A stretch of DNA of 64,000 bases from Ilumatobacteraceae bacterium. GTDB taxonomy: Bacteria > Actinomycetota > Acidimicrobiia > Acidimicrobiales > Ilumatobacteraceae. Positions 46,536 through 48,466 of the stretch are shown here, piece by piece; positions within the stretch are counted from its first letter, which is position 1, and each line of letters starts with the position of its first letter. The position numbers and the translations under genes are program-made. The DNA is taken from assembly GCA_033344875.1 (NCBI GenBank), contig JAWPMO010000001.1, positions 4,613,595-4,677,594 on the forward strand. The letters run 5' to 3'. Under the pieces are notes generated by a model that was not told where the DNA came from, did no database searches, and saw only the letters and a list, made by a program, of their open reading frames with translations.

Positions 46536-46656
46536 CCCCAGGTCAAGGGGTATTTCTGAATCCCCAGGGTTATCCCCTGAACTTTCCGTCAATCCCCAGG
46601 AATTTGGTGTTCATCCACCTTCCGTACACAAGCTCGTGCACAGCTTTGTCCCCAGG
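46536..46656. repeat. Four CCCCAGG direct repeats upstream of the citramalate synthase promoter
   Basis: CCCCAGG begins at 46536, 46562, 46594 and 46650. The last three share the wider form (A/T)(A/G)TCCCCAGG. The block is locally AT-rich and ends 37 bases before the -35 box. Some copies lie in small palindromes, such as ACCCC-AGGTCAA-GGGGT and CAGGG-TTATC-CCCTG. It may be a regulator binding array, which is inferred. Confidence 0.45.
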
Positions 46657-46692
46657 ATCGCCGTCTCGGACCCACCCGGGGGACCTCGGCGT

Positions 46693-46721
46693 TTGACGTT
46701 CGCGCCCGCGACGGGTTGAAT
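46693..46721 (+). promoter_or_regulatory. Housekeeping-type promoter for the attenuated citramalate synthase gene
   Basis: TTGACG (46693-46698) and TTGAAT (46716-46721) are separated by 17 bases, matching vegetative -35/-10 boxes at five and four of six bases. Transcription would start near 46728-46730, at or next to the start of the leader peptide. Confidence 0.55.
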
Positions 46722-46729
46722 GGGGAGCG

Positions 46730-46780
46730 ATGAGTTGCGTTCCGACCTCCCACGACGTCGTCGTCATCATCATTTCGTAG
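46730..46780 (+). CDS. Leader peptide of a Val/Ile attenuator
   Basis: A 16-codon frame, MSCVPTSHDVVVIIIS, from ATG 46730 to TAG 46778-46780. Three Val codons and three Ile codons (GTC x3, ATC, ATC, ATT) sit in a row near its end. GGGGAG precedes the ATG by only two bases, and the predicted transcript starts here, so it may be translated without a leader. The peptide itself needs no function: a ribosome slowed by lack of charged Val- or Ile-tRNA would change folding of the RNA that follows. Confidence 0.8.
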   Translation: MSCVPTSHDVVVIIIS

Positions 46781-46803
46781 AGCACGTGGACATCCACGTG
46801 CTC
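46780..46803 (+). promoter_or_regulatory. First attenuator hairpin
   Basis: GAGCACGTGGA-CA-TCCACGTGCTC is a perfect 11-bp inverted repeat that begins on the last base of the leader-peptide stop codon. A ribosome stopped at the Ile codons or at the stop codon would cover its left arm. It is separated from the terminator stem by three bases. Confidence 0.7.
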
Positions 46804-46806
46804 GTC

Positions 46807-46831
46807 AAGCCGCCCACCGGGCGGCTTTTTT
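46807..46831 (+). terminator. Attenuator terminator in the citramalate synthase leader
   Basis: AAGCCGCCC (46807-46815) and GGGCGGCTT (46819-46827) form a perfect 9-bp stem with a three-base loop, followed by a run of six T (46826-46831). It is a textbook intrinsic terminator 25 bases before the coding region, and the only one with this long a T run that I saw in the window. Confidence 0.85.
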
Positions 46832-46855
46832 GTTGCTCCAGTGAGGAATCACCCC

Positions 46856-48466
46856 ATGACCAGCCAACCGAACTCCCCTGACAAGGTGCGGGTCGAGATC
46901 TTCGACACGACACTCCGCGACGGCTTGCAGGTCGAGGGTGTGTCGGCCTCGGTCGACGACAAGCTGCGCATCGCCGAGCAACTCGACCACCTCGGCGTCC
47001 GCTTCATCGAGGGCGGCTGGCCAGGTGCCAACCCCAAGGACATCGAGTTCTTCGCCCGAGCGGCGACCGAACTCGCCCTGACCACGTCGACGTTCGTGGC
47101 GTTCGGGTCCACACGACGTCCGCGTGGCAAGGTCGATGACGACCAGACGCTGCAGCACCTGCTCGACGCGAACACGTCGGCGGTCTGCATCGTGGCGAAG
47201 AGCAGCGACTACCACGTCACCGAGGCGCTCAAGACCACCCTCGACGAGGGTGCCGCGATGATCGCCGACTCGGTCGAGTTCCTGCACGGACACGGCCGGC
47301 AGGTGCTCGTCGACATGGAGCACTTCTTCGACGGGTTCAAGGACAACCCGGAGTTCTCGTTCCGGGCGCTGGAGGCCGCCGTCGTCAAGGGCGCCACCCA
47401 TGTGGTGCTCTGCGACACCAACGGCGGCTCGCTGCCACACGAGATCGAAGAGATCGTCACCGCCGTCCACGCTCACGTCGGCAACGACGTCATCATCGGG
47501 ATCCACTGCCACGACGACACGGGGTGTGCCGTGGCGAACTCGATGGCGGCCGTGCGCGGTGGCGCCCGGCACGTCCAGGGCACGCTGAACGGCCTCGGCG
47601 AACGGACCGGCAACGCGAACCTGACGTCGATCATCCCGAACCTCCAGCTGAAGCAGAACTACCTGTGCCTGCCCGAGGGGCGGATGGAACGGCTGACCGT
47701 CGTGTCGCACCGCATCGCCGAGACGCTCAACCGTGCGGTCGACCCGCAGGCGCCGTACGTCGGGTCGTCGGCGTTCGCTCACAAGGCCGGGTTGCACGTC
47801 AGCGCGATCGCTCGGGCGAAGGACGCCTACGAGCACGTCAGTCCCGAAGCGGTCGGCAACGGCACACGGTTCGTCGTGTCGGAGATGGCCGGCAAGGCGA
47901 CGATCCAGATGAAGGCCGACGACCTCGGCATCGACATGGACGGGCCGGCCGTGATGCAGGTCATCGACGACCTGAAGCGACTCGAGCACGAGGGATACCA
48001 CTTCGAGGCGGCGGATGCGTCGCTCGAACTGCTCATGCGTCGCTCGGCCGGCTGGGAACACGAGTTCTTCCAGGTCGAGTCGATGCGGGTGATCACCGAC
48101 GAGGTCGGGGGCGGCGAGTTCAACACCGAGGCCACGGTCAAGGTCTGGGTCGGTGACGAGCGCTACGTGTTCACCGCAGAGGGCAACGGCCCGGTCAACG
48201 CGATCGACACCGCGCTGCGCCGCGCGGTCGGCAAGGCGTACCCGCATCTCGCCAACATCCACCTCACCGACTACAAGGTGCGCATCCTCGAAGGTGGGGG
48301 AGCGACCGGCGCCGTGACCAGGGTGCTGCTGTCGGCGACCGACGGTGTGACCGACTGGACGACGATCGGTGTGAGCCCGAACATCATCGAGGCATCGTGG
48401 CGAGCGCTGGAGGAGAGCGTGGTCTACGGCCTCCTGCACGCGCCCGACGCCGTAGGCGGTGTCTGA
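46856..48466 (+). CDS. cimA: Citramalate synthase (DRE-TIM metallolyase)
   Basis: A 536-residue enzyme. The N-terminal TIM barrel has the DRE motif IFDTTLRDGLQVEGVSASVD, then FIEGGWPGANPKD, VLCDTNGGSLPHE and IGIHCHDDTGCAVANS with the metal-site H-x-H. The regulatory LeuA-dimer domain is at the C terminus (from about 400). EGGWPGxNPKD and the overall text match the citramalate synthase subfamily that condenses pyruvate and acetyl-CoA for isoleucine, rather than isopropylmalate synthase. The VVVIII leader upstream supports this. ATG 46856 follows GAGGA at a suitable distance. LeuB may serve the later step. Confidence 0.88.
   Translation: MTSQPNSPDKVRVEIFDTTLRDGLQVEGVSASVDDKLRIAEQLDHLGVRFIEGGWPGANPKDIEFFARAATELALTTSTFVAFGSTRRPRGKVDDDQTLQHLLDANTSAVCIVAKSSDYHVTEALKTTLDEGAAMIADSVEFLHGHGRQVLVDMEHFFDGFKDNPEFSFRALEAAVVKGATHVVLCDTNGGSLPHEIEEIVTAVHAHVGNDVIIGIHCHDDTGCAVANSMAAVRGGARHVQGTLNGLGERTGNANLTSIIPNLQLKQNYLCLPEGRMERLTVVSHRIAETLNRAVDPQAPYVGSSAFAHKAGLHVSAIARAKDAYEHVSPEAVGNGTRFVVSEMAGKATIQMKADDLGIDMDGPAVMQVIDDLKRLEHEGYHFEAADASLELLMRRSAGWEHEFFQVESMRVITDEVGGGEFNTEATVKVWVGDERYVFTAEGNGPVNAIDTALRRAVGKAYPHLANIHLTDYKVRILEGGGATGAVTRVLLSATDGVTDWTTIGVSPNIIEASWRALEESVVYGLLHAPDAVGGV

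Follow-up and report, generated by a model that had tools for sequence, protein, structure and literature searches.

A candidate leaderless isoleucine attenuator before cimA in Ilumatobacteraceae, with a stop-embedded hairpin close to the terminator

The window, that is, the whole 64-kb stretch of DNA that was analyzed, carries a gene whose product scored 662 bits against TIGR00977 (cut-off 450), bearing out the attribution to citramalate synthase (CimA) made in an earlier note on this DNA. The gene upstream of cimA encodes agmatinase (TIGR01230) on the opposite strand, and cimA therefore needs a promoter of its own. The earlier note had described a −35/−10 pair, an ATG opening a 16-codon frame with the run VVVIII and a stop, and a perfect 9-bp stem with six T residues. 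All are present in the sequence, and the region is organized as follows.

46693-46721, forward strand: promoter, with −35 TTGACG (46693-46698), a 17-nt spacer, and −10 TTGAAT (46716-46721); from the sequence
46730-46780, forward strand: putative leaderless leader ORF MSCVPTSHDVVVIIIS, stop UAG; from the sequence, Ile conservation, and the in-frame start
46757-46774, forward strand: putative regulatory codons, GTC three times (46757-46765, not conserved), then ATC ATC ATT (46766-46774, conserved)
46780-46803, forward strand: HP1, stop-embedded hairpin GAGCACGTGG-acat-CCACGTGCTC; from the predicted fold and covariation
46807-46831, forward strand: intrinsic terminator, with a 9-bp stem (46807-46827) and a U-tract (46826-46831); from the sequence, the predicted fold, and the set of 69 leaders described below
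46856-48466, forward strand: cimA, citramalate synthase, 536 residues from ATG 46856; from TIGR00977

The leader ORF (MSCVPTSHDVVVIII-S-UAG) opens 8 nt past the −10 element and comprises 16 sense codons (M S C V P T S H D V V V I I I S from ATG 46730), followed by TAG at 46778-46780. The sequence GGGGAG, located 2 nt before the leader ATG, is too close for a normal Shine-Dalgarno site. An alternative frame containing an Arg/His run, which would open at ATG 46720, was rejected, its ATG overlapping the −10 element and lying upstream of the predicted transcription start. The hairpin following the stop was found as previously described, but not its length of 11 bp: HP1 consists of 10 bp with a loop of 4 nt, which would shrink to 2 nt if an 11th pair were formed, and the G of the UAG stop is its first base. 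HP1 ends 23 nt ahead of the U-tract, and two of the six T residues at 46826-46831 pair within the 9-bp terminator stem. HP1 and the terminator form together in the predicted fold of the RNA from 46730 to 46836, with a free energy of −44.9 kcal/mol versus a mean of −29.1 for shuffled sequences (z, −4.6; 0 of 200 shuffles equally stable). A GTG at 46841 shares the frame of the cimA ATG at 46856.

The specificity of this layout was assessed with a detector combining a promoter, a start codon 4 to 10 nt after the −10 element, an ORF, a hairpin at the stop, and a terminator, the amino acids being left free. Scanning both strands of the window returned a single match, the cimA leader, with a score of 19.6. 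The same detector applied to 294 kb of trpE, ilvD, and hisG loci gave 15 matches scoring at least 12 (best per strand and locus), which included two ilvB leaders (17.8 and 18.4) and one His-rich leader (17.2); the remaining 12 (12.0 to 15.9) look like chance. The strong matches in the ilvD loci were adjacent ilvB leaders. No Trp leader was seen in the trpE loci scanned for the design, and among the hisG loci scanned the extension of the design to histidine amounted to one His-rich leader in one genome only. Locus L238 (hisG locus of genome G014, minus strand) carries a short His-rich ORF, MLITHVAHHHVHHVTRRAHL, with two hairpins and a U-tract behind it, a sequence that is possibly a His attenuator. 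Neither the window nor any of 20 related loci matched one of the 4,227 covariance models of Rfam 15 at gathering score, the best subthreshold match being Phe_leader with 28.4 bits (cut-off, 55).

Conservation was analyzed in two samples of cimA loci. The gene was sought by protein in 61 genomes, all of which gave a match, some through paralogues only, and a further sample consisted of the best 80 of 580 named loci. Without an amino acid requirement, the layout detector was positive for 85 of 131 readable loci, a count in which duplicate genomes and the locus of the window itself are included. Leaving out the duplicates, L106 (a chance match), and L056 (a paralogue) resulted in 69 distinct cimA leaders, including that of the window. 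In Ilumatobacteraceae, the family of the window, the element was located directly before cimA in 29 of the 33 genomes with a readable region; it was absent from this position in the other four (L024, L030, L031, and L033). Among the protein-searched genomes of other families, 1 of 20 readable cimA upstream regions was positive (L043). A cultured relative, Desertimonas flava (L082), is among the carriers of the element. Most of the 69 leaders have a promoter similar to that of the window shortly before their start.

All 69 leaders end with UAG and carry Ile at codon −2, which is ATT in 68 of them; Ile is also found at codons −3, −4, and −5 in 61, 65, and 57 leaders, respectively. Val occupies codon −5 in 4 of 69, and conservation does not extend to the three Val codons of the window. 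The Val/Ile codon bias reported previously is thus maintained in the relatives aligned upstream of cimA for Ile, at codons −2 to −5, but not for Val, indicating that the putative sensor is, on codon conservation, one for Ile rather than for Val/Ile. HP1 starts on the last base of the stop codon in 68 of the 69 leaders, its stem comprises 8 to 12 bp in 68, and the gap between HP1 and the terminator is 0 to 6 nt in all 69; this tight placement was partly selected, since the detectors sought hairpins near stops with terminators soon after. Because 69 distinct cimA leaders share this anatomy, chance is ruled out, at the level of sequence comparison, as the origin of the layout in the window.

The earlier note had called for a test of covariation upstream of cimA. 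In an alignment of 68 distinct rows, which stem from related genomes and are not independent, both-sided changes were found in 8 of the 10 pairs of HP1. The terminator stem is nearly invariant (both-sided change in 1 of 7 pairs) and adds little to covariation. For HP1 and the terminator together, 91.1% of the cells were paired versus 83.2 in shuffles, and 87 cells were double changes versus 27.3, neither value being reached in any of 500 shuffles. Both shuffle controls therefore favor a structure, and HP1 covaries in the aligned sequences. HP1 keeps its sequence in addition to its pairing. In the ilvB leaders L158 and L173, which have UAA or UGA stops and HP1 in the same place, the first pair is A-U, not G-C.

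Transcription starts ca. 6 to 8 nt after the −10 element. Promoters were called independently of the ORF; 71 cimA loci yielded one, and 4 more yielded none. The start codon was located 5 to 8 nt after the −10 element in 61 of the 71 loci. Start-like codons at these offsets were open and in frame with the leader stop in 65 cases out of 65, 8 cimA loci having no start-like codon in range. Shine-Dalgarno-like 4-mers precede 7 of 62 cimA leader starts. Since independently called promoters place the start codon at the expected transcription start, the cimA leader peptide is probably leaderless, and the earlier proposal that transcription starts on or next to the leader ATG agrees with these predictions. 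For the other genes described below, the start-like codons were in frame and open in 15 of 18 leuB loci and 7 of 10 leuA loci but only 7 of 21 ilvB loci, for which the promoter test is weak.

A covariance model trained on the cimA leaders produced three matches at E ≤ 10 in the window's own genome, upstream of cimA (1.3e-15), ilvB (0.024), and leuA (7.1, a value that is not significant alone). The leader ORF of ilvB is MRADFRALVVLID-UAG and that of leuA, a gene checked against NCBIfam, is MMTNAERTLLLLT-UAG; the leuA element (L138) contains a bulge in HP1, was missed by the detectors, and was found by reading the sequence. In the class Acidimicrobiia, 184 of 395 genomes matched the cimA-trained model at E ≤ 0.001, the E values being rough. 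Among the fetched loci, 24 distinct elements with Ile/Val codons precede leuB. Of 396 genomes drawn from the phylum, 28 matched the same model, including three outside the class, all in one family; the two of these that were readable (L331 and L332) are ilvB leaders. Model R2, which describes the terminator stem only because of poor ilvB alignment, was used solely to survey the phylum. The ilvB-trained model matched 40 of 119 phylum genomes, and 30 of its loci were read, three branched-chain residues near the stop being demanded. A hairpin on the last base of the stop was found in 8 of 9 loci of the class and in 8 of 21 loci outside it; among the 30 loci, the hairpin was 4 to 12 nt from the stop in 8 others, and 6 gave no reading. 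By these sequences, the tight stop-embedded form is typical of Acidimicrobiia but occurs beyond the class.

A cross-group set, for which at least three Ile, Leu, or Val residues were demanded among the last six codons, comprised 138 assigned elements (cimA type, 76; ilvB, 27; leuB, 24; leuA, 11). Seven elements lacking a gene assignment were left out; one of these, L264, is an ilvB leader whose locus is short. The gene names in this set and in the 30 loci read above are presumptive, having been assigned from short protein motifs. Ten downstream proteins were compared to NCBIfam: the assignment was in agreement for three leuB, three leuA, one ilvB, and one cimA product, whereas that of L057 fitted leuA best and that of L056 (75 residues) gave no match. 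L056 and L057 (genomes G053 and G056), both counted in the cimA-type group, are cimA paralogues (33 to 34% identity) preceded by Leu leaders of the same design, which end in UGA (MSTRHLTSVLLLT and MRQSRPRHLLLT). HP1 starts on the last base of the stop in 131 of the 138 elements, and the gap to the terminator is 0 to 6 nt in 135. Judged on this shared anatomy, the window's cimA leader is one member of a set of elements on cimA, leuB, ilvB, and leuA.

Codon choice in the leaders differs from that in the downstream genes: ATT accounts for 47% of the Ile codons of cimA leaders versus 21% downstream, GTA for 58% of the Val codons of ilvB leaders versus 4%, and CTT for 43% of the Leu codons of leuA leaders versus 5% (the Fisher tests of codon choice were run on rounded counts). 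Such a bias is the expected trace of selection on decoding and supports translation of the leaders. The leader amino acids also fit the target gene, with Leu before leuA and Leu/Val/Ile before ilvB. This match argues, together with the conservation in the cimA set of the Ile codons, the frame, the start position, and a covarying HP1, against a constitutive weak terminator accompanied by a chance ORF and devoid of amino acid sensing; the fact that one complete relative (L024) has no such element upstream of cimA is in favor of that explanation, which we regard as hardly credible.

No obvious antiterminator excluding the terminator had been noticed in the window, and a secondary structure search of 129 elements from the four gene groups found none either. 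Pairing of the 3′ arm of HP1 with the 5′ arm of the terminator was rejected, with 0 double changes and less frequent pairing than in shuffles, as was an outward extension of HP1, which was not above shuffles in the 129 pooled elements. HP1 and the terminator share no base in the predicted folds, and their mean stabilities in the cimA leaders are −16.6 and −16.0 kcal/mol, respectively. The cimA terminator was predicted at a mean probability of 0.93 to 0.97 wherever the edge of the ribosome was set, with values down to 0.002 for single sequences; with HP1 free to fold, the mean for the 129 elements was 0.957, L154 and L066 being outliers. There was no clear trade-off between the gap and the length of HP1 (Spearman −0.21, P = 0.07, cimA). 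Before the 3′ arm of the terminator is made, 32 of the 129 elements have at least one base of the 5′ arm paired in the predicted fold. This early pairing is worth ca. 1.4 to 2.3 kcal/mol on average in the models, and a weak early competition for the 5′ arm may exist. Since the terminator stays predicted with HP1 folded, nothing in the modeled RNA switches by base pairing.

A classical antiterminator might have escaped this search in the form of a pseudoknot, noncanonical pairs, a short-lived cotranscriptional fold, or contact with an outside RNA. The ilvB leaders of Corynebacterium glutamicum and Mycobacterium tuberculosis are described as mutually exclusive folds in the portions of the reports available, and both the early pairing of the terminator 5′ arm and the fall of the terminator probability in single sequences (the minimum of 0.002; L154) could reflect such a structure. 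We nevertheless consider it unlikely in view of the behavior of the two rejected helices and of the terminator arms, which differ among the gene groups, HP1 being similar in cimA, leuB, and ilvB.

The cimA leader is, in our assessment, likely to be a ribosome-mediated transcription attenuator sensing charged tRNA-Ile. Transcription would start at the leader AUG or 1 to 2 nt before it (46728 to 46730), and a ribosome would load on the 5′ end of the mRNA once this end leaves RNA polymerase. A stalled or parked ribosome protects ca. 12 nt beyond the start of the A site. If Ile is plentiful, the ribosome would reach the UAG and cover nearly all of the HP1 5′ arm, which is mostly 8 to 12 nt long, thereby blocking HP1, so that the terminator would fold and cimA would be off. 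If Ile-tRNA is scarce, the ribosome would stall at codons −5 to −2 with its front edge short of most of HP1, which would fold, and the polymerase would read into cimA. Codons −5 to −3 in the A site would leave HP1 free. We infer the leaderless start, the translation of the leader, and the direction of the response. HP1 would have to prevent termination, because sensible regulation needs a folded HP1 under starvation to mean read-through.

The most speculative element of this model, with nearly an even chance of being right, is that folded HP1, 0 to 6 nt from the base of the terminator, hinders termination by its position rather than by competition for bases, for example, by keeping the terminator stem from zipping completely within the RNA exit channel. 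In the ilvBNC leader of C. glutamicum, a mutationally supported antiterminator and the terminator overlap only at the boundary GCC, according to the accessible part of the report (PMC11857589), suggesting that contact at the base of neighboring hairpins may suffice; we extend this, by analogy, to zero overlap.

HP1 could instead act as a pause hairpin only, detaining the polymerase until an arriving ribosome melts it, with antitermination being achieved otherwise, such as by a stalled ribosome touching the polymerase. The placement of HP1 is compatible with this role, since a ribosome cannot reach the stop without opening it and its end in the window lies 23 nt ahead of the U-tract; in C. glutamicum, the upper part of hairpin H1 has been proposed to cause pausing (PMC11857589). 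This possibility, which we find rather unlikely, leaves unexplained both how stalling prevents an independently folding terminator and why the gap is short in the 135 elements. The conserved sequence of HP1 is consistent with yet another role, in which folded HP1 recruits a protein or contacts the polymerase and thereby brings about read-through, as cis-acting antitermination RNAs do. The motif CATA is present in the HP1 loops of 9 of 11 leuA and 9 of 27 ilvB elements (shuffled means, 0.4 and 0.7). It was found in 1 of 75 cimA and 0 of 24 leuB elements, and common descent may account for the kept sequence, making such binding quite improbable. Carriers of the CATA loop among the leuA and ilvB elements include L148, L149, L174, and L267.

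Attenuators of the Escherichia coli trp, his, and ilv type combine a leader ORF rich in codons for the product, translated from a Shine-Dalgarno site, a terminator, and an antiterminator sharing bases with it, and are read through on starvation. Textbook attenuation thus demands two mutually exclusive RNA folds. The cimA element has the leader ORF rich in codons for the pathway product and the intrinsic terminator before the structural gene; it has no Shine-Dalgarno site for the leader, and the secondary structure search found no antiterminator sharing bases with the terminator. Because the shared-base test failed, we do not file the cimA leader as a classical attenuator, although it would work like one. 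In the 131 elements that keep a ribosome-sized hairpin on the last base of the stop, with a terminator close behind and no shared bases found, position alone may suffice if the switch works. Generalized to the class, leaderless attenuators of cimA, leuB, ilvB, and leuA would dispense with mutually exclusive pairing, the stop-embedded hairpin controlling the terminator purely by its proximity of 0 to 6 nt; this generalization is tentative and, in our opinion, somewhat short of an even chance.

One of the two closest precedents is ilvBNC of C. glutamicum (PMC11857589 and PMC10272879, as far as accessible), which has in common with the cimA element branched-chain codons, a transcription start one nucleotide from the leader start codon, and an antiterminator hairpin that follows the control codons and meets the terminator at its base. 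In the cimA element, the start codon falls at the transcription start by promoter prediction only (the 61 of 71 loci), and the hairpin after the codons could be blocked by a ribosome at the stop (68 of 69). The two systems differ by the boundary GCC shared by the hairpins of C. glutamicum, whereas the predicted hairpins here are separate, with a gap of 0 to 6 nt in 135 of the 138 elements, by a third hairpin that overlaps the leader in C. glutamicum and was not seen in the cimA element, and by the target gene. For the other, ilvB1NC of M. tuberculosis, the available part of PMC13236596 reports that replacement of LVVI by AAAA abolishes induction. The four regulatory codons (LVVI, including GUA), the masking of the antiterminator by a ribosome at the stop, and the terminator coming next resemble the cimA element; ilvB1NC differs in being described as two mutually exclusive structures and in its gene, ilvB1.

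Seliverstov and colleagues remarked in 2005 that many actinobacterial cases lack components of an attenuator (PMC1262725, in the part available), a remark to which the set described here offers an answer. Their candidate ilvB leaders of Actinobacteria resemble the present elements in having terminators and short ORFs that contain runs of Ile/Val/Leu; the accessible text describes no cimA or leuB element, no Acidimicrobiia genome, and no stop-embedded hairpin. Their LEU element of leuA is, in the same text, a pseudoknot whose base stem pairs Leu codons with the leuA Shine-Dalgarno sequence; the leuA elements of the present set carry a terminator instead. Leader peptides of Streptomyces lividans are transcribed without a 5′ untranslated region (PMC8079986, as far as available), as predicted for the cimA leader; in IlvL (MRTRILVLGKRVG) the regulatory codons are further from the stop, and no cimA element is tabulated in the part available. 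The Cys upstream ORFs of mycobacteria are likewise reported to encode leader peptides without a 5′ untranslated region. By these partially available sources, Actinobacteria are already known to have leaderless leader peptides (ilvB and leuA) and branched-chain attenuators, including one of ilvB1 that was tested by experiment. No attenuator of cimA or leuB, and none from Acidimicrobiia, was found in open-licence full texts; cimA and leuB are thus added as candidate attenuator targets.

Upstream of the promoter, positions 46541 to 46670 contain a one-strand array of TCCMC repeats resembling DnaA boxes (ATCCCCAG, TTATCCCC, TTCATCCACC, and TTGTCCCCAG). The array is opened by GGTCAAGGGGTATTT, a motif present in 22 of the 69 cimA loci. 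A three-repeat pattern is unique in the window's own genome, dnaA is 1.4 Mb away, and GC skew within the window shows no clear sign of an origin of replication. Locus L024 (genome G021), which has no attenuator, retains the TCCMC array and displays a −10-like CAGACT 7 nt before the ATG of cimA, a sequence by which cimA itself may be leaderless there. At least two TCCVC copies are present in 57 of the 69 cimA loci, and 100 of 191 spacings between copies are 11 to 12 or 20 to 21 nt. TCCMCA occurs on the forward strand at a mean of 1.97 per 197 nt versus 0.13 on the other strand.
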